This document shows positions 34,772-52,602 of a stretch of DNA of 64,000 nucleotides, in pieces. Position 1 is the stretch's first letter. Every line of letters begins with the position of its first letter. The translations under genes were made by a program, and so were the position numbers. A model generated the notes under the pieces. The model saw only the letters and a program-made list of their open reading frames with translations, was not told where the DNA came from and made no database searches. Source of the DNA: Alphaproteobacteria bacterium (GTDB lineage: Bacteria; Pseudomonadota; Alphaproteobacteria; UBA9219; RFNS01); NCBI GenBank assembly GCA_037200005.1, contig JBBCGY010000001.1, positions 788,416 through 852,415 on the forward strand, in the 5' to 3' direction.

Positions 34772-34847
34772 TGGTGGGCGATCACGGGCTCGAACCGTGG
34801 ACCCGATGATTAAGAGTCATCTGCTCTACCAACTGAGCTAATCGCCC
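34772..34847 (-). tRNA. tRNA-Lys (anticodon CTT)
   Basis: On the minus strand the sequence begins GGGCGATTAGCTCAGTTGG and ends ATCGCCCACCA. The acceptor GGGCGAT pairs with ATCGCCC; the D arm is AGCTC-GAGC; the anticodon stem GATGA/TCATC closes the loop CTCTTAA with anticodon CTT, reading AAG; the T arm CACGG-TTCGAGC-CCGTG is intact. CCA is encoded (34772-34774). 76 nt with CCA. Confidence 0.97.
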
Positions 34848-37250: not shown

Positions 37251-37370
37251 TGGGAAATATCCCTTGATTTTGTCTTTGTCTTGAGATATTGACAATCCCC
37301 AGAGGGCTTGCGCCCAAAATCTGCCGAGCCGAATAAATCCGCCGCGATGATGCATCCGGCGGATTTTTTT
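37251..37370 (+). repeat. Direct repeat, copy 1 (120 bp, with terminator)
   Basis: It starts TGGGAAATATCCCTTGA and aligns without gaps to 38415-38534 with about seven mismatches. It contains a GGGCTTGCGCCC dyad and ends in an intrinsic terminator. It follows the hybrid kinase gene and precedes the putative toxin gene. Confidence 0.95.
37335..37370 (+). terminator. Intrinsic terminator of the hybrid kinase gene
   Basis: AAATCCGCCG (37335-37344) pairs with CGGCGGATTT (37357-37366) around a 12-base loop, followed by a T run. It forms the right end of repeat copy 1. Confidence 0.85.
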
Positions 37371-37409
37371 ATCGCAGCGAATTTCGTTTCATCCAGCAGG
37401 GGCGTGCTG

Positions 37410-38111
37410 ATGCTCGAAGAGAGTCTCAGAGAGGTGCATAGAAGCGCCGACAATTTGGCTTTCAGCCATTATATCAGAAGCGGTCATGTGCCGCCGATCC
37501 TGCTGGAGATCGTGCAGGCCACGTCTTCTCTCGAAGTCTTCTGCAAATATCGATGCAGGCATAAATTCAAACCTAAGTTCAGCCCCGGCCAGCCGCGCGT
37601 TCCTGCTGGCAGTCCCGATGGTGGGCAATGGACGGATGGGGGCGGCGGAGGTGGCGGGCCGACAGGAGGCGGCAAGCCAGAGGAAGCACCCGCGCCGCCG
37701 GGCCAGGTCTACGATTGGACCAACGAGCCGAATCCTCGCCGCGTCCTGGTGCCGGATGAGCCGGGGTTGGAGCCGGTTTATCCGATAGAAGGGGCCTTGG
37801 CTTTATCGTTAGGAGGGGAAGCCATCGTCACGGCGAGAGAAGCATTGCGCGCTGCCAGAATATTGCAGGCGAGGGAGACAGAAAATTCCATGTTGACAGA
37901 ACATGGTGCAAAAAGATTGGCTCAACGCGGCATTGCCGATAGTCAGATTCAAGAGGCGGTACGAACAGCAAAGCTGCAAAACCAAGTGATTACAAGAACA
38001 GGTAAATATGGTACCCCCGTGCTAATCCACAAAGGTTCGAATGGCGTTACGGTGATTATTGAGACGGTCGGTAGAAATGCGGGTAAAATTATCACAACAT
38101 ATCACCATTAA
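37410..38111 (+). CDS. Putative polymorphic toxin with PRVPAGSPDGGQWT motif
   Basis: The protein is 233 residues from ATG 37410, which follows AGGGGCG; the open frame extends upstream, but that part is the terminator of the repeat. Residues 57-75 read FSPGQPRVPAGSPDGGQWT, a motif I recall from alphaproteobacterial phage-linked proteins with variable C-terminal toxin domains. A Gly/Pro-rich linker follows. The last 75 residues (LTEHGAKRLAQRGIADSQIQ, then NGVTVIIETVGRNAGKIITT, ending YHH) resemble small RNase-fold toxin domains such as DUF4258, with His, Arg and terminal His as possible catalytic residues. A small gene follows after 15 bases, and 120 bp repeats flank both. The toxin role is inference. 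Confidence 0.6.
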   Translation: MLEESLREVHRSADNLAFSHYIRSGHVPPILLEIVQATSSLEVFCKYRCRHKFKPKFSPGQPRVPAGSPDGGQWTDGGGGGGGPTGGGKPEEAPAPPGQVYDWTNEPNPRRVLVPDEPGLEPVYPIEGALALSLGGEAIVTAREALRAARILQARETENSMLTEHGAKRLAQRGIADSQIQEAVRTAKLQNQVITRTGKYGTPVLIHKGSNGVTVIIETVGRNAGKIITTYHH

Positions 38112-38126
38112 GTGGGATTCGCGACT

Positions 38127-38393
38127 ATGACCATATCACTTTCCAATGTAGAATCGGCGCTCTTCGCTGAAGACATCGAGGGGTTGCTTGCGCTTGGTGC
38201 GCCAGATGACGAATATTTTCCTGAAGCAAAGGACATAACGGCGGCTTTGACCACATTGAGCAAGGATCGATTGACCGAGGCCAACGTCATTGCCGTTATT
38301 TCCTTGGTATGGGCAAAATATTTTGAGCTTTCAAACGATGATATCGAAAAGCGTATCCCCGCTTTCCGGCGCATCGCGCAAAATCTTTTGTAG
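38127..38393 (+). CDS. Putative immunity protein
   Basis: The small acidic protein has 88 residues from ATG 38127. The core LLALGAPDDEYFPEAKDITAAL resembles DUF1871-like and other small proteins with a GAPxDEYxxEA motif that occur as immunity proteins beside polymorphic toxins. The rest is helical (VIAVISLVWAKYFEL). Its position 15 bases behind the toxin-like gene, small size and acidic charge fit an immunity partner that blocks the basic C-terminal toxin domain. No function is proven. The second repeat copy, with a terminator, follows 21 bases after its stop and closes the unit. Confidence 0.5.
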   Translation: MTISLSNVESALFAEDIEGLLALGAPDDEYFPEAKDITAALTTLSKDRLTEANVIAVISLVWAKYFELSNDDIEKRIPAFRRIAQNLL

Positions 38394-38645: not shown

Positions 38646-39899
38646 ATGGCATTACGCAATTGGCTCGGCGGGCTTGCGAAGCAACCCGCCGTGAAGTCCA
38701 GCGCGGCCGGACCCCTGATCGCCTGGAGCCAGATCGGCCGGGCGAAATGGACGCCGCGCCGCTATGACGCGCTGGCGGAGGAAGGCTTTCGCAAGAATGT
38801 CGTCGCGTATCGCTGTATCAGCATGGTCGCCGGCGCCGCCGCGCAGATTCCATGGCTGCTATATGACGGCGAGGGGAGGGAACTGACATCGCATCCCCTG
38901 TTGCAGATTTTGGAGCAGCCCAATCCGCTGATGGACGGCGTCAGTTTCCGCGAGAATCTTTTCGCGGCATACCAGATCGCGGGCAATGTGTATATCGAGG
39001 CGGTGCGCCCCGATAGCGGCGCGCCGCGCGAATTATACCCGCTGCGTTCCGACAGGATGCGGGTGGTGCCGGGGCCGACCGGCTTTCCGCAGGGCTATGA
39101 ATATCAGGCCGGGGGCCAGACGATGCGCTGGAACGCCGATCCTCTGACCGGCGCCAGCAATATCCTGCATGTCAGGCATTATCATCCGCTCGACGACTGG
39201 TACGGGCTCGCGCCGCTGGAAGCGGCCTTGCTCGCCATCGATCAGCATAATGCCGCCGGCGGATGGAACCAGGCGCTGCTGAACAATGGCGCGCGTCCTT
39301 CCGGCGCTTTGGTTTTCGCGCCGAAGGAAGGCCCGGCGCATTTGTCCGAGGAGCAGGTGCGGCGGCTGAAAGATCAGCTCGACGAATATTATCAGGGCGC
39401 GCGCAATGCCGGAAAGCCCATGTTGCTCGAAGGCGGCCTAGACTGGCGGCCGATGAGCCTCAGCCCCCAGGATATGGACTGGCTGAAGGGCCGCGACGCC
39501 GCGGCGCGGGATATCGCCCTGGCTTTCGGCGTGCCGTCCCAGCTCGTAGGACTGCCGGACGCGCAGACCTACGCCAATATCAAGGAAGCGCGGCTGGCGT
39601 TCTATGAAGAGACGGTATTGCCGCTCGCGATGCGCTTCGTCGCTTCGTTCAATCACTGGATCGCGCCGATGTTCGGCGACGGTCTGGTTCTCGATCTCGA
39701 TCTCGACGAAGTCAGCGCGCTGGCGCAGCGCCGCGAGGCGGTCTGGGAAAAGCTTCAGCGCGTCGATTTCCTGACCATCAACGAAAAGCGCGACGCCGCC
39801 GGATACGGCCCGCTCGCCGACGGCGACCGTCTGGTATTCAGCGCCGCGCCCCTCTCTGCGCCATCGTCTTCATCGATAACCGAACGAGGTTCCCCATGA
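38646..39899 (+). CDS. Phage portal protein, HK97/GTA type
   Basis: The 417-residue protein is a dodecameric head vertex protein through which DNA enters and leaves the capsid. Features of the HK97-type portal family are VVAYRCISMVAGAAAQIPW near residue 50, HPLLQILEQPNPLMDG, ILHVRHYHPLDDWYGLAP, the clip/stem region with GGLDWRPMSLSPQDMDW, and VPSQLVGLPDAQTYANI. The length is like that of GTA portals. It is the first recognisable particle gene, but no terminase precedes it; the bases before it hold repeat copy 2 and a leader. Its stop overlaps the protease start (ATGA). Confidence 0.95.
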   Translation: MALRNWLGGLAKQPAVKSSAAGPLIAWSQIGRAKWTPRRYDALAEEGFRKNVVAYRCISMVAGAAAQIPWLLYDGEGRELTSHPLLQILEQPNPLMDGVSFRENLFAAYQIAGNVYIEAVRPDSGAPRELYPLRSDRMRVVPGPTGFPQGYEYQAGGQTMRWNADPLTGASNILHVRHYHPLDDWYGLAPLEAALLAIDQHNAAGGWNQALLNNGARPSGALVFAPKEGPAHLSEEQVRRLKDQLDEYYQGARNAGKPMLLEGGLDWRPMSLSPQDMDWLKGRDAAARDIALAFGVPSQLVGLPDAQTYANIKEARLAFYEETVLPLAMRFVASFNHWIAPMFGDGLVLDLDLDEVSALAQRREAVWEKLQRVDFLTINEKRDAAGYGPLADGDRLVFSAAPLSAPSSSSITERGSP

Positions 39900-40447
39900 C
39901 CGTGCGTCATTTCACCACGCCGCTTGAAATCAAGAATTACGGCGCCGACGGCCTTTTTTACGGCTATGCCAGCGTTTTCAATAAAATCGACTCTCATGAC
40001 GAAGCGGTCGCGCCCGGCGCGTTCCGCCGCACGCTCGCGAATTGGCGCGCCGAGGCGCGGATGCCCGCGATGCTGTGGATGCATGACGCGACCTTGCCGG
40101 TCGGCGTCTGGCTCGGCCTGACCGAAGACAAGGAAGGGCTTGCCGTCGAGGGGCGGCTGGCGCTCAGGACGCAGCGGGGATCGGAAGCTTACGAACTGCT
40201 CAAGATGGGGGCGGTGACCGGGCTTTCCATCGGCTATCGCGTGGCGGCGGCGCGGGCCGATGCCAGGCGAAAATTGCGGACATTGCTCGATATCGATCTG
40301 TTCGAAATTTCGCTGGTGACGTTTCCGGCGAACGACGCGGCTCGCGTGACGCGGGTCAAAACGCCGCTGCCCGTATCCGGCAATGCAACCCGCGCCATCG
40401 TCGCGCCGCTCTACCGGGCGGCGGAAGCATTGAGAACCCATATCTAG
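39896..40447 (+). CDS. HK97-family prohead protease
   Basis: The 183-residue serine protease cleaves the scaffold part of the capsid protein during head maturation. It has FYGYASVFNKIDSHDEAVAPGAF at the start (family signature of the U35/HK97 protease), the catalytic His in MLWMHD, the Ser in AVTGLSIGY and an acidic strand LFEISLVTFPANDAARV. It overlaps the portal gene by four bases and precedes the capsid gene, the standard portal-protease-capsid order of HK97 phages and GTAs. Confidence 0.95.
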   Translation: MTVRHFTTPLEIKNYGADGLFYGYASVFNKIDSHDEAVAPGAFRRTLANWRAEARMPAMLWMHDATLPVGVWLGLTEDKEGLAVEGRLALRTQRGSEAYELLKMGAVTGLSIGYRVAAARADARRKLRTLLDIDLFEISLVTFPANDAARVTRVKTPLPVSGNATRAIVAPLYRAAEALRTHI

Positions 40448-40468
40448 AACCACAACAGGAGAATGAAC

Positions 40469-41701
40469 ATGATCGACTCTATGGAAGTAAGAAAAGCGTC
40501 GGAGACGCTCGGCAGCGCCTTCGAGGAATACAAGATGGTGAACGACCAGCGGCTGGCCGAACTGGAACGGCGCGGCAGCAGCGACGTTCTGCTGACCGAC
40601 AAGCTCAGCCGTCTCGACAGCGGCATGACCAAATTGCAAGACGAGGTCAGCCAGGTGAAAACGGCCATGCGGCGTCCCGCGCTCGGCGGCAGCCAGGGCA
40701 AGATCGACGACGGCGCGGACGGCGAATACAAGCAAGGCTTCATGCGCTATATCACCAAGGGCGTCGAGCAGGACATGGCGAGCCTGCAGACCAAGGACCT
40801 CAATGTCATCAGCGATCCCGCCGGCGGTTATATGGTGCCGGCGGAGATGTCGGACCGGATCGTTAAGCGACAGTTCGATACGACGCCGATGCGCAGCCTC
40901 GCCACCGTGATGAGCGTGACCTCGGAAGCGATCGAAATGCTGCGCGATACCAACGAGCCGGACGCCGTGTGGGCGTCGGAGCTCGCGGCGCGCAGCGATA
41001 CCGCCGAAGGAACGCTTGGGCGCATCCGCATCCCGGCGCATGAGCTGTACGCCCAGCCGCGCGCGACGCAGAAACTGCTCGACGACGCCGTCATCAATGT
41101 CGAGGACTGGCTGGTCAACAAGGTGGCGGATAAATTCGCGCGCCGCGAAAGCAACGCTTTCGTCGTCGGCGACGGCGTGACGCAGCCGCGCGGCTTCGCC
41201 AGCTATGCGACGGCGGCGACCGGAGACAACAGCCGCTCATGGGGCGTTCTGGAGCATGTCATCACCGGCGCGGACGGCGCGTTTCCGGCGTCGAACCCGG
41301 CCGATCTGCTCATCACGCTGATGCATAAATTGCGGGTGGGCTATATGCCGGGCGCGGTGTGGCTGATGCCGCGCTCGGTCGCCGAGCAAATCCGCCGCTT
41401 CAAGGAAAATAGCACCAGCGCCTATATCTGGCAGCCGGGACTGCAGGCGGGAACGCCGGCGATGCTGCTCGGCTTTCCGATCATCCTGGCCGAGGATATG
41501 CCCGCCCCGGCGGCAAGCTCGCTGTCGGTCGCGTTCGGCAATTTCGCCGAGGGCTATACCATCGTCGACCGGATGGGCATCCGCATCCTGCGCGATCCCT
41601 ATACCGCGGCGCCTTTCGTCCGCTTCCGCTGCAACAAACGTGTCGGCGGCGACGTGACGAATTTCGAAGCGATCAAGTTCCTACGCTTCTCGGCAACGTA
41701 A
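40469..41701 (+). CDS. HK97-fold major capsid protein
   Basis: The protein is about 410 residues. I prefer ATG 40469, seven bases after AGGAG, to ATG 40463. A coiled-coil N-terminal delta domain of about 110 residues (with RLAELERRGSSDVLLTDKL) acts as scaffold and should be cut off by the protease near the segment before TKDLNVISDPAGGYMVPAEM. The HK97 fold then shows TTPMRSLATVMSV, RIRIPAHELYAQPRATQKLL, FVVGDGVTQPRGFASYA and the P-domain end PFVRFRCNKRVGGDVTNFEA. It is close to GTA capsid proteins in size and layout. Confidence 0.96.
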   Translation: MIDSMEVRKASETLGSAFEEYKMVNDQRLAELERRGSSDVLLTDKLSRLDSGMTKLQDEVSQVKTAMRRPALGGSQGKIDDGADGEYKQGFMRYITKGVEQDMASLQTKDLNVISDPAGGYMVPAEMSDRIVKRQFDTTPMRSLATVMSVTSEAIEMLRDTNEPDAVWASELAARSDTAEGTLGRIRIPAHELYAQPRATQKLLDDAVINVEDWLVNKVADKFARRESNAFVVGDGVTQPRGFASYATAATGDNSRSWGVLEHVITGADGAFPASNPADLLITLMHKLRVGYMPGAVWLMPRSVAEQIRRFKENSTSAYIWQPGLQAGTPAMLLGFPIILAEDMPAPAASSLSVAFGNFAEGYTIVDRMGIRILRDPYTAAPFVRFRCNKRVGGDVTNFEAIKFLRFSAT

Positions 41702-44154: not shown

Positions 44155-44745
44155 ATGCAATCGCTTGAACTGGCGGCCGCTCCAGCCGCCGAACCCGTCA
44201 CCCTGGCCGAAATCAAGAGCCATGCGCGGATTGAAACCTCTGCCGATGACGCTTTGCTGACGAATTTCATCGCGGCGGCGCGGCAATGGACCGAGCAATT
44301 CACCGGAAGGGCGATGATGACGCAGAGCTGGCGGTTATGGCTCGATGCGTGGCCGATGCGGGAGGATCGTTGCATTCAATGGGTCGAATTGCCGCGCGCG
44401 CCGCTTCAGGCGGTGAGCGAAGTGCGGCTATACAAGCGGGACGGCAGTTTCGACACCTGGTCCGGCGCGAATTACCAGGTCGATGCCGCCGCGCAGCCGG
44501 GACGGCTCGCGCTGCCCTATGATCAGGCATGGCCCGGCACGTCCCGCGCAGTGCAAGCGATCCGGATCGATTTCACGGCGGGCTATGCGAGCGCCGCGCT
44601 GGTGCCGGAGCCGATCAAGGCGGCCATACGCCAGCTCGCGGCTCATTGGTATGAGCATCGCGGCGCGGGCGGCGCGACGCTGCATGAGATTCCCTATGGC
44701 GTGCAGGCGCTGCTGGCTCCCTATGTCGTGCGGTCGCTGTCATGA
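44155..44745 (+). CDS. Head-tail connector protein, phiE125 gp8/HK97 gp6 type
   Basis: The protein has 196 residues from ATG 44155. The first 70 residues (AAEPVTLAEIKSHARIETSA, DDALLTNFIAAARQWTEQFT, GRAMMTQSWRLWLDAWP) match the connector family that docks under the portal and forms the head-tail adaptor ring. The C-terminal part (PEPIKAAIRQLAAHWYEHRG) completes the helical bundle. GTA gene 6 belongs to this family. Its stop overlaps the following start (ATGA). Its presence implies that some tail structure is attached to the head. Confidence 0.88.
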   Translation: MQSLELAAAPAAEPVTLAEIKSHARIETSADDALLTNFIAAARQWTEQFTGRAMMTQSWRLWLDAWPMREDRCIQWVELPRAPLQAVSEVRLYKRDGSFDTWSGANYQVDAAAQPGRLALPYDQAWPGTSRAVQAIRIDFTAGYASAALVPEPIKAAIRQLAAHWYEHRGAGGATLHEIPYGVQALLAPYVVRSLS

Positions 44746-45155
44746 CGGCGGCGAGACCGGGGAGGAATTTACTGCTGCGGGACGGCACGGCTGCGGATGC
44801 GCCGGTCATCGCGGCGATGCGGCAGACCACGCTGAGCGTCATCGCCGCGCCGGTGGATGTGACCGACCGCGACAGCGCGGGCGGCTGGCGAGAATTGCTT
44901 CCCGGCGCGGGTCCGGCGCGGGTGCGGATCGAGGCCGAAGGGCGGCTGGAGGGGGCCGTGCAAGGTTCGACGCTGATGGCGCGCGCCATAGGCCGCACCG
45001 CGGACGCCTATCGCGTCGAATATGATAACGGCGATTATTTGCACGGGTTGTTTCAGATCGCCCGCCTGGAGGCGCAAGGCGGCGCCGAAGGCGAGCAGAG
45101 TTACAGCCTGGTTCTGGAATCCGCCGCGGCGCTGACCCATGGGACGGCCGGATAG
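44742..45155 (+). CDS. Putative head-tail joining (adaptor/stopper) protein
   Basis: The 137-residue protein overlaps the connector gene by four bases. A beta-barrel pattern follows an N-terminal tail: DVTDRDSAGGWRELLPG, PARVRIEAEGRLEGA, YRVEYDNGDYLHGLFQIARL and SYSLVLESAAAL. The GGWxE...VRIEA...GxxYLI-like order recalls the phage head-tail joining family (stopper proteins, GTA gene 7), but it is diverged. Position right after the connector supports the role. An alternative is a small tail terminator or tail protein. Confidence 0.6.
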   Translation: MTAARPGRNLLLRDGTAADAPVIAAMRQTTLSVIAAPVDVTDRDSAGGWRELLPGAGPARVRIEAEGRLEGAVQGSTLMARAIGRTADAYRVEYDNGDYLHGLFQIARLEAQGGAEGEQSYSLVLESAAALTHGTAG

Positions 45156-45166
45156 AAGGATAAATC

Positions 45167-45514
45167 ATGCCAAGCGTTCGATTTTACAAGCCGCCGCGCC
45201 GCAGAGCGCCGCGCGCGCGGATGATGCGTCAGCCGCGCGAGAACGATTCCTGGTCGCAGGTCGACCGCGCATTATTTCCTGCCGCCGATATGCAGAGCAT
45301 CGTCGATCAGCTTGAGCAGAGATTGACGCGCACGTTGCTTGCGAAACTCGCGGTGCAGCCTCTGCAGCAATTCGGCGCGGCGCTGGGCGGCGAAACGGCT
45401 GGCGCGCTCTCCGGACTGTTCGATTCAGGCGGCGCTTACGACTTTCAGCCCAGCCGATCGCAAGTGGCGTCCCTGTTCGGCGATTGGATCGGCCAGGCGG
45501 AAGACCTTTTTTAG
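45167..45514 (+). CDS. Small protein at the usual tail tube/tape measure position
   Basis: The protein has 115 residues from ATG 45167 behind AAGGAT. The N-terminus is strongly basic (PPRRRAPRARMMRQPRE), the rest helical: MQSIVDQLEQRLTRTLLAKL, VQPLQQFGAALGGETAGAL, SGLFDSGG. The helix and Gly-rich turn resemble the last part of small tape measure proteins of GTAs, where a similar ALAPLxxxFGxALGGLFSG stretch occurs, but the match is weak. It fills the only space between the adaptor and DUF2460 genes, where tail tube, chaperone and tape measure genes would be expected. Confidence 0.55.
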   Translation: MPSVRFYKPPRRRAPRARMMRQPRENDSWSQVDRALFPAADMQSIVDQLEQRLTRTLLAKLAVQPLQQFGAALGGETAGALSGLFDSGGAYDFQPSRSQVASLFGDWIGQAEDLF

Positions 45515-45523
45515 GATGAAAAT

Positions 45524-46150
45524 ATGAGTTTCGATGAAACGCAGTTACCGTTGCGCATAGGCTTCGGCGCGCGCGGCGGGCCGTCTTTCGCGACCGAGAT
45601 CGTCGCGATCGACGGCGGCTACGAAAGGCGCAACCAGAATTGGAGCCAGGCGCGCCGCCGTTACGATGCGCGCACGGGATTGCGCTCCGCCGACGATGCC
45701 GCCGCTCTTCTGGCGTTCTTTCATGCCAGAGCCGGGCGCGCACGCGGATTCCGCCTGAAAGACTGGGCGGATTTCACCAGCGCGGCGAACGGCGTCGGCG
45801 CGCCGCTGTGGAGCAATCAGGCGGTTGCCGTTGGCGACGGCGTGGCGACGCAATTCCAGCTCGTTAAAATTTATACGAGCGGCGGGGTGACGCACCGGCG
45901 CTTGATCCGCAAGCCCGTGGCCGGGTCGGTGACGATCGGCGTGAACGGCGCGCAGGTCGTGAGCGGCTGGAGTGTCGATGTCACGACCGGGATCGTCAGT
46001 TTCGCCGTAGCGCCCGCGAACGCCGCGACGATCACCGCGGGCTATGTATTCGACGTGCCGGTGCGGTTCGATACGGACGCCCTTTCGCTTGCCGCCGAGG
46101 ATTTCACGTCTTTCCGCACCGACATTCCCATCATCGAAATCAGAGTCTGA
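45524..46150 (+). CDS. DUF2460 distal tail protein (GTA gene 12 family)
   Basis: The 208-residue protein matches the DUF2460 (TIGR02217) family, the distal tail protein ring at the lower end of GTA tails. It shows LRIGFGARGGPSFATEIVAI, YERRNQNWSQARRRYDARTG, FFHARAGRARGFRLKDWADF and the end RFDTDALSLAAEDFTSFRTD. The N-terminus starts like the family although the usual FPxxIA opening is changed. It starts at ATG 45524 after AGGATG. Its stop overlaps the next start (TGATG). The hub proteins encoded next should sit on this ring. Confidence 0.93.
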   Translation: MSFDETQLPLRIGFGARGGPSFATEIVAIDGGYERRNQNWSQARRRYDARTGLRSADDAAALLAFFHARAGRARGFRLKDWADFTSAANGVGAPLWSNQAVAVGDGVATQFQLVKIYTSGGVTHRRLIRKPVAGSVTIGVNGAQVVSGWSVDVTTGIVSFAVAPANAATITAGYVFDVPVRFDTDALSLAAEDFTSFRTDIPIIEIRV

Positions 46151-46998
46151 TGAAAACCCTTTCTCCTGCCTTGCAAGAGCATCTCGCGGGCGAGCTGGCG
46201 ACGTTGAGCTATCTCGTCAAGATCACGCGCCGCGACGGCACGGTACGCGGCTTCACCAATCACGACCGCGATATCGTTCTCGATGGCGTGACCTATAAGG
46301 CCGACGGCGCGTTCAGCCCCTCGGCCATCGCCAGCACCAGCAAGCTCGCGGCCGATAATCTCGAGATCGGCGGCATCACGGGGAACGACATCACCGCCGC
46401 CGATCTCGCGGCGGGCAGATACGACCATGCGCGGGCCGATGTGTATGTCTGCAATTGGGCCGATCTCGGCCAGGGCGCGCTGCAATTGCGGCGCGGATGG
46501 CTGGGTGAAGTGACGCTGGCGGGCGAGCGTTATACGGCGGAATTGCGCGGGCTGCACGACCTGCTGCCTCGCGAATTCGGCGATTATTATACGGCGGAAT
46601 GCCGTCACGATCTCGGCGACGTGCACTGCGCGGTCGCTCTCGCGCCGCTCACGGTGACAGGGGCCGTGACAACGGTGATTGACACCGCTAATTTCCTCGA
46701 CGCGTCGCGCGCCGAAGCGGACGGTCTTTTCGATCACGGAAAACTGCAATGGACGACCGGCGCGAATAGCGGCCTTGCGGTCGAGGTCAAGAAATGGGAC
46801 GCGACGCTGAGTCAGTTCGTCTTATGGCTTCCGCTGCCGAATCCGATAGCGGTGGGCGACGCCTATACGGTTTATGCGGGTTGCGACAAGCGGCTTGCCA
46901 CCTGCAAGGATAAGTTCGGCAATCTGGCGAATTTCGGCGGTTTTCCGCATATGCCGGGCGTCGATAAAATCCTGCAATATCCCGACGGCAAGCCATGA
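46150..46998 (+). CDS. DUF2163 baseplate hub protein (GTA gene 13 family)
   Basis: The 282-residue protein belongs to the DUF2163 (TIGR02218) family: LATLSYLVKITRRDGTVRGF, TNHDRDIVLDGVTYKADGAF, DNLEIGGI and RRGWLGEVTLAG. Four Cys in two groups (TAEC and VHC; AGC and ATC) at about residues 152, 159, 240 and 247 recall the metal or iron-sulfur site of lambda gpL-like hub proteins. In GTAs this protein forms the hub between the distal tail ring and the tip. Translation is coupled on both sides (TGATG before, ATGA after). Confidence 0.93.
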   Translation: MKTLSPALQEHLAGELATLSYLVKITRRDGTVRGFTNHDRDIVLDGVTYKADGAFSPSAIASTSKLAADNLEIGGITGNDITAADLAAGRYDHARADVYVCNWADLGQGALQLRRGWLGEVTLAGERYTAELRGLHDLLPREFGDYYTAECRHDLGDVHCAVALAPLTVTGAVTTVIDTANFLDASRAEADGLFDHGKLQWTTGANSGLAVEVKKWDATLSQFVLWLPLPNPIAVGDAYTVYAGCDKRLATCKDKFGNLANFGGFPHMPGVDKILQYPDGKP

Positions 46999-47405
46999 CC
47001 GAAGCGCAGGTTACAGCCATGATCGCGGCGGCGCGCGGCTGCATCGGCACGCCGTTTCATCATCAGGGGCGGTTGCCGGGAACGGGACTCGATTGCATCG
47101 GCCTTGTGATCGTCGCGCTGCGGGCGGCGGGCATGACGGTGAATGATCGGCAGGATTATAGCCGCCGTCCCGACGGCGCGAGCCTTGCCGAAGCTTTGGC
47201 CGCGCATGGAGCGTCCGTCGTCGCGGACATCGTGGCGGGCGATGCGCTGCTGTTCGCTTTCGACGGCGCGCCGCAGCATGTCGCGCTGGCCGCTTCGCCG
47301 GACCGGATCATTCACGCTTACGCGCCTGCCGGGAAGGTGATCGAAACTTTTCTGAGCGCGCCATGGCGGCGCCGTCTTATCGCTTCTTATCGTTTCGGCG
47401 GGTAA
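46995..47405 (+). CDS. NlpC/P60 cell wall peptidase (GTA gene 14 family)
   Basis: The 136-residue protein has the catalytic Cys in TGLDCIGLVIVALRAAG, the His in PQHVALAASP and a third polar residue in RIIHAYAPAG. It has no signal peptide, as expected for a particle-borne enzyme. In GTAs and siphophages this peptidase sits in the tail tip and cuts peptidoglycan peptides to let DNA cross the wall. It overlaps the DUF2163 gene by four bases and is followed after three bases by the tip protein gene, matching the GTA order 12-13-14-15. Confidence 0.94.
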   Translation: MTEAQVTAMIAAARGCIGTPFHHQGRLPGTGLDCIGLVIVALRAAGMTVNDRQDYSRRPDGASLAEALAAHGASVVADIVAGDALLFAFDGAPQHVALAASPDRIIHAYAPAGKVIETFLSAPWRRRLIASYRFGG

Positions 47406-47408
47406 ATC

Positions 47409-50400
47409 ATGGCTTCCATCGTTCTCAGCGCCGCGGGCAACGCCGTTTTGCCGGGGGTCGGCGGCATTCTCGGCAAGCTCGCCGGAGGCGCTATCGATCG
47501 GCAATTTGGATTCGGCGCGCGCAAGAGCGAGGGGCCTCGTCTCGAAAACCTCAAAGTGCAGGATTCGCGCTACGGCGCGGGCATTCCCATCATCTATGGC
47601 CGCGCGCGCATCGCCGGGCAAGTCATCTGGTCGAGCGATCTTATCGAAACCGTCCATGAGGAGGATGCCGGCGGCAAAGGTGGAACCGGCGGCGCTTCGT
47701 CCAGGCGCTATAGCTATAGCGTCAATTGCGCCGTGGCGATCGGCAAGGGGCCTATCGGCCAGATTACGGCGGCCTGGGCCGATGGCAAGCAAATCTATGA
47801 CGGGCTGAACTGGAAGGCCGGTCTTGCCGCCAGCGTCAATTTCTATCCCGGCGATCAAATGCAGAATCCCGATCCGGTGATGGAAGCGGCGCTGGGCGCG
47901 GGAAATGTTCCCGCCTATCGCGGCACCGCCGTGATCGTCTTCGAGAATATGCAGCTTGCCGATTTCGGCAGCCGGCTGCCGAATCTAAGCTTCGAGGTGA
48001 CGGCGGGAAGCGCGTCCGCCGCGCCATTGGCCGCCGAGAATGTCGTGCCGGATTTGCAAAATACGCAAACCGGCCTTGCCACGCATGGCGGGACGCCGCC
48101 GCTTGTCATCAGCGGCGATGCGCGGCGCGCGAACCAGGCGATCGTCGCGGGAATGCGCAATGCCACGGCGGCGGGAAGCGATGCCGCCTTCATCGTCACG
48201 ACCTGCGCGCTGGGAGACGAAGCGCCCGGCGAGCTTGCCCGCGTTGTTTCCGCGGATTTCTCCATCGACGCCATCGTCGGCGTCGTAAGCTGGTCATTAT
48301 CTCCCGACGGACGCTACGCCGCGATCATCGCCCTGACCGACATGGTGCCGAATACCCTCGTGTCGCTGGCGATTTACGATACGCAGGCGCGGCAATTCGG
48401 GCCGGTGGCGCAAGTCACGATGAAAAACTTCGTCAAATCCGTCGCCTGGCTAGACGCGCTGCGTTTCGTGGTTTCGGATCATGACGGCAGCCAGCTGGGG
48501 GTGCAGATTTTCGCCCGCGCTGGCCTTACTATCGTATCCCTTGGGTTTCGCGGCGTATGGGGCGCGGGTTCGGCGGGCAGCCGCGCCACAGTCGGTACGG
48601 CGCAATTCATTCTCTTGCAGGGCGGGCTGCTCTATTGCGCCGGCAATACGTGGATAAGCCCATCGACGCTTTATCTTTGCCATATGCGCTGGGGGGCGGG
48701 AGGCCTTGTCTGCGGCGCGCCTTATACGCTCAGCGCTTCGGTGCCCGCCAATAGTTTGAATCACGCGGACATTATTCCGATAGGGCCGGGAGAATTCCTG
48801 TTCTGCTTCGCCAAGACCGACCGCGTGCATGTCATGAGCTTCATGCCCACGGCTTCGGGGGTCGTGGTCACGCGCAACTGGCAGGTCGTGACGTTGGCGG
48901 CGATCAGCACGTATGTCTCGCCTTGCCGGTTCGGAGGGCATATCCTGCTGCTGCAGAAATCGATTTTCGACGGGCAATACCGGCTGTCCGAAATCGCGCT
49001 CGGAGCCGGAAGTTTCACCCTCGCGACCGACAGCGTGCCGGTCGAAGGCGGCGAAGCCTTCGGCAGCACGCACTTCATGCCGATGGTGATCGATTACAAC
49101 CGGATTCTGATTCAAGGCGGAGACAGTTTCGGCCTCGACTTCTCGGAGCTGCGCATCATCAGCCGGTATGCGGGCGGCGATAGCCTGCAGAACATCGTCG
49201 CCGATATCCTGGCGCAAGCCGGTTACGCTCCGGGCGATAGTGCGCTTGACGTTCTCGCGCCCATTCGCGTGACGGGATACGTCCTGCAGCCGCCGCTCAC
49301 GGCGCGCGCGGCGCTGGAGCCGCTCAGGCTTTACGGCGCCTTCGATCTGATCGAAAGCGACGACAGGCTCAAGGCGGTCGCACGACACGGCGATATCGAC
49401 GCGGCGCTGGAGGATGGCGAGCTTGGGGCCGCCAAGGATGCCAGCCGCGCGCCGCCGCCGCTGACGATCACGCGCAAGCAGGAGCTCGACCTTCCGCTTG
49501 AGATATCGGTCGATTATATCGATCCGGCGCGCGATTTCGAGATCGGCAGCGTCCGCTCGCGCCGCATCGCTTCGGCGGCGACCGCGCGCGGCAAGCTCGC
49601 GATGCCGGTCATATGCAGCGCCGACCGGGCCAAGCAAATCGCCGAGGCCCGGCTCTATGCCGCATGGGCGGAGAGGGAACAGGCGCGCATGACGCTCTCG
49701 CGCCGCTATCTGTTTCTCGATCCCGGCGACGTGGTGCAGGCCGGGCAGCGCAGCTTCCGGCTGACCTCCGTGCATCAATCGGGCGGATTGATGCAATGCG
49801 ACGCCATCAATAACTACGCGCCCGCGAATGCCAGCGCGGCGAAAGCCGATATCGGCAATATCAACGCGCCCGCCAGGGAGGCCGCCGACAGCATCCTGTA
49901 TCTTATGGATCTGCCGCCGCTGAACGCGAGCGATCAGCCCGGCATTTACGCCGCCGTCAGCGCCGCGCCGGGCTGGCGCGGCGGATCATTGTGGCGCGCC
50001 GGCGACGGCGTGACTTACGCTTCGGTCGATTCCTTCCAGGTGGCGGCGACGGCGGGAATGGCGCTGACCGCGCTTGCCGCGCAGGCGGCGGATTATATGG
50101 ATCGCGTTGGCAGCGTCGATGTGCAGCTGATCCGCGGGACTCTGGCGAGCTGCGGCGATCCGGAATTGCTGAACGGCGCGAACGCGGCTTTGCTCGGCGG
50201 CGAGATCATCCAATTTCGTACTGCGACTCTGCTGGGGCCGGGCTATTACCGCCTGACCGATTTTTTGCGCGGACGGCGCGGAACCGAAGACGCCATCGCC
50301 GCGCATCAGGTTGGCGAGAATTTCATCATGCTGAATAGCGCCGCGATGCACCTTCTGCCGTTGCGCGCGGAAGACAGGGGGCGGGGCTATCAGTATCGCG

Positions 50401-50804
50401 CGCTGACGGCGGGGCAGAGTCTCGGCGGCGTGCTGGATACGAATTTCACCAGCGATTTGCGCATTTGGCGGCCGTTATCGCCCGCGCAGCTTCAAGGAGC
50501 GCGGGCGTCAGGAACGGGCAGCGATCTTGCGCTCGGCTGGGTGCGCCGCGCCCGGCTGAATGCCGAATGGACGGATTTGATCGACGTGCCGCTCGACGAG
50601 GCTCAGGAATTGTACGATCTGGAAATTTACGACAGCGGCGACATTTTGAAGCGCGCGGTCAGCGGCCTGACGGCGGCAAGCTACGTTTATACCGCCGCGC
50701 AGCAGAGCGCCGACTTCGCCATCGTTCCGGCCAGTTACCGGGTGCGCGTGTATCAGGTCAGTCCGCGCTATGGGCGCGGCGCGGCGGCGCTCGGCGTTAT
50801 TTAA
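47409..50804 (+). CDS. GTA gp15-like tail tip protein with beta-propeller-like insert
   Basis: The protein has 1131 residues. The N-terminal 200 match the GTA gp15 start (YGAGIPIIYGRARIAGQVIW, YSYSVNCAVAIGKGPIGQI, VPAYRGTAVIVFENMQLADF). The part from about 590 on matches the Phage-tail_3 region (SLQNIVADILAQAGYAPGDS, LTARAALEPLRLYGAFDLIE) and later tip domains (PGYYRLTDFLRGRRGTEDAI). Between them, where GTAs carry a TIM-barrel glycosidase domain, residues about 225-580 form repeated beta-strands with SPDGRYAAIIAL and YDTQARQFGPV turns, like a beta-propeller. I see no TIM-barrel catalytic motif. The product is probably the receptor-contact tip or a wall/glycan-binding device. Confidence 0.85.
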   Translation: MASIVLSAAGNAVLPGVGGILGKLAGGAIDRQFGFGARKSEGPRLENLKVQDSRYGAGIPIIYGRARIAGQVIWSSDLIETVHEEDAGGKGGTGGASSRRYSYSVNCAVAIGKGPIGQITAAWADGKQIYDGLNWKAGLAASVNFYPGDQMQNPDPVMEAALGAGNVPAYRGTAVIVFENMQLADFGSRLPNLSFEVTAGSASAAPLAAENVVPDLQNTQTGLATHGGTPPLVISGDARRANQAIVAGMRNATAAGSDAAFIVTTCALGDEAPGELARVVSADFSIDAIVGVVSWSLSPDGRYAAIIALTDMVPNTLVSLAIYDTQARQFGPVAQVTMKNFVKSVAWLDALRFVVSDHDGSQLGVQIFARAGLTIVSLGFRGVWGAGSAGSRATVGTAQFILLQGGLLYCAGNTWISPSTLYLCHMRWGAGGLVCGAPYTLSASVPANSLNHADIIPIGPGEFLFCFAKTDRVHVMSFMPTASGVVVTRNWQVVTLAAISTYVSPCRFGGHILLLQKSIFDGQYRLSEIALGAGSFTLATDSVPVEGGEAFGSTHFMPMVIDYNRILIQGGDSFGLDFSELRIISRYAGGDSLQNIVADILAQAGYAPGDSALDVLAPIRVTGYVLQPPLTARAALEPLRLYGAFDLIESDDRLKAVARHGDIDAALEDGELGAAKDASRAPPPLTITRKQELDLPLEISVDYIDPARDFEIGSVRSRRIASAATARGKLAMPVICSADRAKQIAEARLYAAWAEREQARMTLSRRYLFLDPGDVVQAGQRSFRLTSVHQSGGLMQCDAINNYAPANASAAKADIGNINAPAREAADSILYLMDLPPLNASDQPGIYAAVSAAPGWRGGSLWRAGDGVTYASVDSFQVAATAGMALTALAAQAADYMDRVGSVDVQLIRGTLASCGDPELLNGANAALLGGEIIQFRTATLLGPGYYRLTDFLRGRRGTEDAIAAHQVGENFIMLNSAAMHLLPLRAEDRGRGYQYRALTAGQSLGGVLDTNFTSDLRIWRPLSPAQLQGARASGTGSDLALGWVRRARLNAEWTDLIDVPLDEAQELYDLEIYDSGDILKRAVSGLTAASYVYTAAQQSADFAIVPASYRVRVYQVSPRYGRGAAALGVI

Positions 50805-51425: not shown

Positions 51426-51698
51426 ATGAAAGCGCGCAACTGGCAGATGGACCGGAGGATTTCGCTCGGCCTGATCGCGGCGCTTTTGCTTCAGGCGGGA
51501 TCGGCGATCTGGTGGGCCGCGGGCAAGGAGCAGCAGGATCGCTTTCAGGACAGCCGCCTGGTTCAGGCCGAGGCCGCGATGATCCGCCAGAGCGGCGATC
51601 AGGCCCTGATCGCCGAACGGCTGGCGCGCATCGAGGCGCGCATGGAAAGCCAGATCGAGATTTTGAAAAATATCGAGAAGCGTCTGGGGCGCGATTGA
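51426..51698 (+). CDS. Small membrane-anchored coiled-coil protein (lysis cassette)
   Basis: The protein has 90 residues from ATG 51426. A basic start (MKARNWQMDRR) is followed by one TM segment (ISLGLIAALLLQAGSAIWWA) and a charged coiled coil (RLARIEARMESQIEILKNIE). This is the layout of i-spanin-like Rz or of DUF2730-type phage proteins. Position just before lysozyme supports a lysis role, but no o-spanin lipoprotein gene is seen. Its stop overlaps the lysozyme start by one base (TGATG). Confidence 0.7.
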   Translation: MKARNWQMDRRISLGLIAALLLQAGSAIWWAAGKEQQDRFQDSRLVQAEAAMIRQSGDQALIAERLARIEARMESQIEILKNIEKRLGRD

Positions 51699-52198
51699 TG
51701 GACGATACGGTTGGAATCGCTTTGGCCCGGCATGCGTTCGGGCCACGGCGGATCAACCAGGCGGGGCTGCGGCTCATCAAGGATTTCGAGGGGCTGCGCC
51801 TCACCGCCTATCTTTGCCCCGCCAAGATATGGACGATCGGCTATGGCCATACGCAGGCGGCGCGGCCGGGCATGACGATCACGGCAGAGCAGGCCGAATT
51901 GCTGCTCGAGGATGATCTGCATCCCATCGAGCAGCATGTCGAAAAATCCGCGCAGGTTCCGCTCGGCGATAACCAGTTTTCCGCGCTGGTGTGTTTTGCC
52001 TTCAATGTGGGAAGGACGAATTTCTCGCAATCGACATTGCTTCGCCTGCTCAATCGCGGCTGGTACGAGCAGGTTCCGGCGCAGCTTTCGCGCTGGAACC
52101 GCGCGCGCGGCGAGGCGCTTGGCGGCCTCGCGCGCCGCCGCGCGGCGGAGGCGAGATTATGGAACAGGCCGGATGACGGAGCGGGGAGGCAATCATGA
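51698..52198 (+). CDS. Phage lysozyme (endolysin), GH24 family
   Basis: The 166-residue muramidase has the GH24 core: catalytic Glu in IKDFEGLRLTAYLCPAKIW, then TIGYGHTQA. The position of the classical Asp is Cys (AYLCPA), giving a Glu-Cys-Thr triad, a variant also seen in other phage endolysins of this family. The second lobe has DNQFSALVCFAFNVGRTNF and RWNRARGEALGGLARRRAAE. There is no signal peptide, so export depends on the holin encoded next. It overlaps both neighbours (TGATG, ATGA), forming a compact lysis cassette. Confidence 0.94.
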   Translation: MDDTVGIALARHAFGPRRINQAGLRLIKDFEGLRLTAYLCPAKIWTIGYGHTQAARPGMTITAEQAELLLEDDLHPIEQHVEKSAQVPLGDNQFSALVCFAFNVGRTNFSQSTLLRLLNRGWYEQVPAQLSRWNRARGEALGGLARRRAAEARLWNRPDDGAGRQS

Positions 52199-52602
52199 TT
52201 ACGGATATTATTTCGGCGGTGGCGTCGATCCTGGACAAGATCATCCCCGATCCCAAGCAGCGCGAGGAAGCCAAGCTCAATCTGCTCAAGGCCGAGAACC
52301 AGCAGGCGCTGGAAGAGGCGAAAGCGGGCATGGCCGCGATCCTGGCCGAGGCGCAGAGCCAGGATAAATGGACGTCCCGCGCCCGGCCGTCGTTTCTCTA
52401 TGTCGTCTATGTGATGCTGCTCAGTGCCATCCCGATGGGCATTGTCTATGCCGTCAGTCCGGCGACGGCGGGCGATATCACCAAGGGCTATCAGGCCTGG
52501 CTCGCGGCGATTCCCGAACCCATTGTCCGGCTATTCGAAATGGTGATGTTGGGATATATTTGTGGGCGAAGCTGGGAGAAAATAAAGACGAAGTCAAAAT
52601 AA
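52195..52602 (+). CDS. GTA-type holin (3TM family)
   Basis: The protein has 135 residues from ATG 52195, which overlaps the lysozyme stop (ATGA). An amphipathic charged helix (PDPKQREEAKLNLLKAENQQ) precedes TM segments LYVVYVMLLSAIPMGIVYAV and IVRLFEMVMLGYICGRSW; the pattern matches the GTA/phage 3TM holin family (PF11351-like) with its RPSFLYVVYVML motif. The product should permit release of the lysozyme. It is the last gene of the one-strand cluster. The acyltransferase gene on the other strand ends 13 bases further on. Confidence 0.9.
   Translation: MITDIISAVASILDKIIPDPKQREEAKLNLLKAENQQALEEAKAGMAAILAEAQSQDKWTSRARPSFLYVVYVMLLSAIPMGIVYAVSPATAGDITKGYQAWLAAIPEPIVRLFEMVMLGYICGRSWEKIKTKSK

Follow-up and report, generated by a model that had tools for sequence, protein, structure and literature searches.

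W115, the 115-residue product of a small gene in the window (the whole 64,000-nucleotide stretch of contig JBBCGY010000001.1 from an alphaproteobacterium analyzed here), is in our reading descended, in reduced form, from the GTA-type tape measure protein (TMP; RcGTA gp11) and serves as a mini tape measure or channel plug for a very short tail, an interpretation to which we assign a probability of roughly 0.75. We file it as a reduced homologue rather than a plain gp11 member because it has neither the long helix nor the beta block, and is not accompanied by the chaperone genes. The first-pass annotation had remarked that the product faintly recalls the end of GTA tape measure proteins, and this resemblance is now backed by two disjoint TMP profiles, an in-register C-terminal motif, the position of the gene, and its relatives.

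W115 is a real gene within an RcGTA-like head-tail cluster. The cluster runs from portal, protease, and capsid through four more genes to adaptor gp6, tail tube gp9, W115, the distal tail protein (Dit), and hub, and continues past the hub with an NlpC/P60 peptidase, megatron, DUF2793, a small ORF, phage lysozyme, and GTA-type holin. The RcGTA-type head-tail gene order from portal to megatron and a PF11351 holin are both present. The assigned features, with the matching family or protein and E value, are as follows.

38646..39899, + strand, portal protein (PF04860, 1.2e-87)
39896..40447, + strand, prohead protease (PF04586, 1.1e-32)
40463..41701, + strand, major capsid protein (PF05065, 1.3e-79)
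44155..44745, + strand, head-tail adaptor, gp6-like (TIGR02215, 1.3e-42)
44742..45155, + strand, tail tube protein, gp9-like, 137 aa, directly upstream of W115 (PF06199, 2e-18; RcGTA tail tube Rcc01691, 4e-13)
45167..45514, + strand, W115, resembling a small tape measure protein (an Arg-rich head at residues 1-27, a helix plus an Ala/Gly-rich hinge at ~28-86, and a C-terminal F..S..Q.A helix at ~91-115)
45524..46150, + strand, distal tail protein (Dit), gp12-like (PF09343, 3e-71; TIGR02217; RcGTA Dit Rcc01695, 8e-58)
46150..46998, + strand, baseplate hub, gp13-like (TIGR02218, 8.5e-71)
46995..47405, + strand, NlpC/P60 tail peptidase, gp14-like (PF00877, 9e-8)
47409..50804, + strand, megatron, gp15-like (PF13550, 4.9e-31; PF23666 Rcc01698_C, 3.4e-26)
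51698..52198, + strand, phage lysozyme, endolysin (PF00959, 1.3e-45)
52195..52602, + strand, GTA-type holin (PF11351 GTA_holin_3TM, 1.6e-23)

The tail tube assignment was also recovered with a six-sequence tube alignment. A hybrid histidine kinase flanks the cluster on one side and acyltransferase and citrate synthase genes on the other, and a large terminase gene is separated from the cluster by ~0.82 Mb of the same contig; its product shares 58% identity with the one encoded beside the portal gene in sister genome G002. A tRNA gene is found at 34775-34847 (− strand), ~3.8 kb upstream of the portal gene.

The W115 reading frame is an intact ORF of 115 codons, with an AAGGA motif preceding its ATG, that starts 11 bp past the stop of the tail tube gene and ends 9 bp short of the Dit start. 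Its codon-position GC (0.67/0.49/0.72) follows the pattern of the neighboring genes and differs from that of an overlapping antisense ORF at 45165-45743 (0.66/0.73/0.51). The protein is rich in Ala, Gly, and Arg, and both features that had been picked out at first sight are borne out: the strongly basic head, with a net charge of +7 over the first 30 residues vs. a mean of −2.8 in 25 ordinary TMPs, and the helix with a Gly-rich turn, which corresponds to an Ala/Gly-rich helix-like stretch.

Between adaptor gp6 and Dit we found no stopper gp7, terminator gp8, chaperones gp10/10.1, or full-length TMP; the 11 bp between tube and W115 hold no chaperone genes. Searches elsewhere in the genome, which is rated 95% complete and offered no positive control for these searches, returned no gp8, only two stop-containing matches to gp7 (E 0.047 and 0.17), and no full TMP, the single TMP match (E 0.02) lying within a 2,268-aa reading frame on the other contig. 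The first-pass annotation had placed W115 in the position of the whole tail tube/tape measure block; this block is not replaced as a whole, because the tube gene sits directly upstream of W115.

The connection to TMPs was established by sequence-profile comparison. The first TMP profile comprised 25 sequences, namely 21 from 80 named genome loci, one from a GTA-like sewage record (L037), and three TMPs of the same order; a sequence entered from the 80 loci if its ORF lay upstream of Dit, was shorter than 320 aa, and carried a GEAG or GEEGPE motif (21/80 passed). This profile scored W115 at 18.6 bits (E 7e-8 for one comparison), compared with a best score of 5.3 bits in 2,000 shuffles of W115, 11.1 bits in 6,000 further shuffles, and only 2.8 bits for the runner-up among the 247 ORFs of the window. 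Among 8,058 six-frame ORFs, 100 others reached at least 18.6 bits, and all of them are TMPs or pieces of TMPs recognizable either from their end motifs or because they overlap a known TMP. We built a second profile from 15 TMPs of further genomes in the class; it has no sequence in common with the first, although its members were picked using the first, and it scored W115 at 19.1 bits, a value attained by none of 6,000 shuffles (highest 15.1), and the next window ORF at 5.4 bits.

The match to TMPs is collinear: residues 32-93 of W115 correspond to the end of the long helix and the hinge, and residues 91-111 to the C-terminal helix, with the alignment starting at profile position 63, so that the first ~60 TMP residues are missing. 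When 44 TMP ends were turned into a profile of their final 30 residues, W115 scored 13.4 bits with its C terminus in register, and the best of 1,176 background ORFs scored 5.9 bits. Aligned with 14 TMPs, W115 retains the F, S, Q, and A that are invariant in the C-terminal motif and lacks two invariant Arg. The long N-terminal helix (113 residues in RcGTA) is not present at full length, as W115 has at most ~59 residues (28-86) before the hinge, and the ~70-residue beta/loop block with GEAGPEAIMPL is absent from both the sequence and the alignment.

The strength of the match depends on the composition of the profile. Removing the same-order TMPs from the first profile lowers the W115 score to 14.2 bits (0/6,000 shuffles), a 20-sequence subset gives 8.8 bits (1/6,000 shuffles), and a profile of the three same-order TMPs gives 2.3 bits, which is not significant (reached by 61/6,000 shuffles). 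In profile-profile comparison, which the first-pass annotation had suggested, hhalign matched W115 to TMPs weakly (probability 2.6%, E 0.018; 2.3% with three family sequences). A search of the whole genome with a 14-row TMP alignment did not list W115 at E<=0.1.

On its own, W115 has no match in Pfam, PHROGs, NCBIfam, or PDB, nor in phage records or viral contigs. Against 96 relatives it finds, besides itself, five weak matches (E 1e-4 to 8e-3), two of which lie in loci (L047 and L048) without a recognized GTA gene; in L048 only the W115-like ORF itself was recognized, and it scores 3.9 bits with the first TMP profile. AlphaFold2 models of W115, predicted from the single sequence and with 14 TMPs, are of low confidence (mean pLDDT 55.4 and 58.6) and place helices at about residues 28-36, 42-72, and 97-114; a Foldseek search with the single-sequence model was uninformative. 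Profiles of tube, terminator, stopper, chaperone, Dit, and hub proteins all gave W115 0.3 bits or less, and we rejected it as a remnant of a tube, terminator, stopper, or chaperone.

The genomic position of W115 agrees with the profile results. W115 occupies the TMP slot directly upstream of Dit, as do RcGTA gp11 (Rcc01694) and GTA-type TMPs, and the slot just before Dit holds a TMP in 14/20 clusters from other families of the class (20 clusters fetched out of 31 DUF2460 places). Unusual arrangements also occur: at L166 (G042, another family of the class), Dit directly follows the tail tube with no recognized TMP or chaperone between them, and at L172 the TMP gene lies out of its usual slot, before the tube. 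Like GTA-type TMPs, W115 has the end of the long helix, the Ala/Gly-rich hinge, and a C-terminal F..S..Q.A helix at the same distance from the C terminus; unlike them, it is about half as long, is without the N-terminal ~60 residues and the ~70-residue GEAGPEAIMPL block, carries an Arg-rich head, and has no chaperone genes beside it. Ordinary GTA-type TMPs in our sample span 167-305 aa, and the suggestion that W115 would be the shortest tape measure known can be made for this sample only. In PMC7296036, the RcGTA TMP is described as a trimer occupying the channel through Dit and the five tube rings, with a helix of 113 residues, strands and loops that add up to 83 residues, and a C-terminal helix of 20 residues; it is thought to retain DNA jointly with the megatron iris, and is likened to the P22 tail needle, to which a relation is proposed. 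Likewise, the R4C paper (PMC10276861) draws a parallel between the C-terminal domain of the TMP and the P22 needle, and infers a position for the peptidase beside that domain. For W115, too, a plug role like that of the podovirus tail needle (P22 gp26) is conceivable; the PDB search with W115 gave no match and hence no sequence link.

Genomes of the same order reveal how variable this part of the cluster is. Twenty-five of the order's 33 genomes contain DUF2460. In G023 the only type present is that of a prophage, with a long TMP; the other 24 carry a GTA-type cluster. In five genomes (family f2), stopper, terminator, and tube are present, together with a chaperone that a profile identified in four of them and visual inspection in G010 (contig stopping just inside Dit), and a 212-224 aa TMP is found behind the hub gene in the three genomes whose contigs show it (L053, L055, L056). 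The genome of W115 and G001 (family f1) have a tube and an ORF of 115 or 128 aa, with no stopper or terminator. In ten further clusters (G002, G005, G011, G013, G016, G021, G027, G028, G029, and G032), a slot ORF of 93-162 aa is found with the tube gene not in view; stopper and terminator are seen in seven of them, and the contig is incomplete in G011, G029, and G032. Five genomes (G014, G020, G025, G026, and G031) have no recognized slot ORF of at least 80 aa, and their stopper adjoins or lies near Dit (333 bp in G020); the clusters of G017 and G024 start at a contig edge. Searched genome-wide, PF06199 finds a tube in 6/33 genomes of the order and the six-sequence tube alignment in 7/33, plus a partial match (E 0.0014) in G022, a genome of family f3. 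We regard the 24 f3 genomes as being without a convincing tube gene (0/24 at E<=1e-3, with that one partial match and several genomes incomplete). A missing tube, as initially claimed for this window, is not the case here, where the tube is present, although none was seen in ten related clusters of the same order.

Other genes interrupt or modify some of these clusters. In some tube-less clusters (e.g., G002, G013, and G029), extra ORFs separate the slot ORF from Dit; at L064 a HicA/HicB-like pair (by eye) is inserted between tail genes 1114-546 bp upstream of Dit, and at L171 a nucleotidyltransferase/HEPN-like pair (by eye) lies between tail genes (2193-2848, reverse-complement coordinates). 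An apparent hub-megatron fusion is found at L060 10482-14378 (G014), where a 1,298-aa frame matches both profiles. In or beside GTA-like clusters we also observe proteins with a common N-terminal part and/or a 'SPDQPRVPAGNPDGGQWTDGG'-type linker and differing C-terminal parts, at these positions.

Window 37308-38111 and 38112-38393; own terminase locus L154 10033-10713 (− strand)
Relatives: L054 1-762, and the portal C terminus at L054 3152-4960; L055 12221-12889
L052 10833-11636, 12801-13427, and 17455-17793
Weaker cases: L066 13580-14149; L059 6027-6653 and 8317-8934

The linker-type protein of the window matches DUF4258 weakly at its C-terminal end (6e-5, slightly below the Pfam cut-off) and is followed by a 93-aa ORF, and at L054 the linker is in frame with the portal. 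They may represent toxin-like, polymorphic cargo carried by GTA-like particles.

Twelve clusters of the order contain slot ORFs of W115-like size, and nine of these ORFs, those of f3, form one clear family. The first TMP profile scores 11/12 of these ORFs above 3.5 bits vs. 13/1,176 background ORFs of 80-180 aa, a set from which a score filter removed nothing. With the disjoint profile, only four of the 12 (W115, L050, L052, and L069) rank above every background ORF (maximum 5.8 bits), and three score close to zero. Against the C-terminal profile, nine align in exact register, one nearly so, and one out of register, and L052 has no match. When all ORFs are ranked by a profile of the nine f3 sequences, TMPs fill 13 of the next 15 places, the remaining two being capsid proteins, and since these TMPs are found mostly via their last 27 residues, it is chiefly the C-terminal helix, together with the slot, that links f3 to TMPs. 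The slot ORF of G002 can be aligned with W115 (12.1 bits, best of 200 shuffles 6.1; BLAST 8e-4), and pairwise alignment fails for that of G001 (0.1 bits). Overall, the same-order slot ORFs (L051, L052, and nine f3; 93-162 aa) share with W115 the slot, the size, the basic character, and the absence of the GEAGPE block, and most have TMP-like C-terminal ends; L052 is alignable with W115, unlike L051 and the f3 proteins. The f3 proteins, in contrast to W115, retain an N-terminal helix-like stretch and have their basic patch in the center, and the L052 and f3 clusters differ from that of W115 in that no tube gene is in view. No f3-type mini-TMP was found outside the order, the one match among 385 class genomes being G005, which belongs to the same order. 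In the literature searched, mostly open-access and including passages of PMC7296036, PMC10276861, PMC10883770, PMC11409702, and PMC6821227, we found neither GTA clusters without a tube nor TMPs as small as W115 described.

Several other explanations for W115 have to be weighed. It is unlikely, but conceivable, that W115 derives from a TMP and no longer measures, being only a channel plug or DNA-end clamp like the podovirus tail needle, with its Arg-rich head DNA-ward and its C-terminal helix in the baseplate. Slot ORFs with a TMP-like C terminus survive in ten clusters whose tube gene is not in view, the Arg-rich head is foreign to TMPs, and the likening of the RcGTA TMP to the P22 needle points the same way; however, a tube gene is present in both the W115 genome and G001, and something must therefore set the length of the tube. 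We think it quite unlikely that W115 is a decaying, functionless TMP remnant in a dying cluster: the absence of gp7, gp8, and gp10 from the cluster and the distance to the terminase would fit such decay, whereas the W115 frame is open and carries coding signals, the translated cluster genes are likewise open, and ORFs of similar size occupy the slot in the 12 clusters described above, nine of them as one clear family.

An unrelated small helical protein in the TMP slot, such as a non-homologous replacement or a lineage-specific assembly factor, would account for the lack of a curated family match, the weak hhalign result, and the Ala/Gly/Arg-rich composition, but we judge it very improbable given that the scores with two disjoint TMP profiles, the collinear blocks, and the C-terminal register all exceed those of shuffles and background ORFs. 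Ordinary clusters carry chaperone, terminator, and stopper genes in this region, and these are missing here; that W115 is a remnant of one of them nevertheless has a negligible chance, as their profiles give it at most 0.3 bits.

As a reduced TMP, W115 would keep the head-distal end of the long helix with the hinge, together with the C-terminal helix. It would have shed the first ~60 residues of the TMP along with the beta/loop block, and acquired the Arg-rich head. Because the lower helix and the C-terminal helix are kept, a short rod docked at the baseplate is to be expected: W115 would form a rod, probably trimeric, in the channel of the tube and Dit, with its C-terminal helix docking at the baseplate. 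It would most likely restrict the tube to a few rings and help to retain DNA until ejection, and its Arg-rich head could face the DNA end. If the RcGTA ratio of 113 helical residues to five rings holds, 55-60 helical residues would correspond to roughly 2-3 rings. In the tube-less relatives the slot protein cannot count rings, which favors a docking or plug role that is separable from the role as a ruler.

Taken across the order, the clusters may preserve a stepwise loss of the siphovirus tail in which the TMP outlives the tube and becomes a podovirus-like plug, a scenario to which we give even odds. Its stages would lead from the full set with a tube and a 212-224 aa TMP (f2), to a tube and mini-TMP without stopper or terminator (this window and G001), then to stopper and terminator with a mini-TMP and no tube (G002 and much of f3), and finally to loss of the TMP as well, Dit coming after the stopper (part of f3). 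If this sequence of events is true, these clusters would supply a naturally occurring intermediate stage in the link that has been proposed between tape measure and tail needle.

Tape measure proteins are usually seen as long rulers, and mini-TMPs that survive without a tube gene would split the ruler function from the docking or plug function. Searches using the usual TMP signature miss mini-TMPs and may label such clusters incomplete. The mini-TMP series would provide a natural test set for how a long tail shortens.
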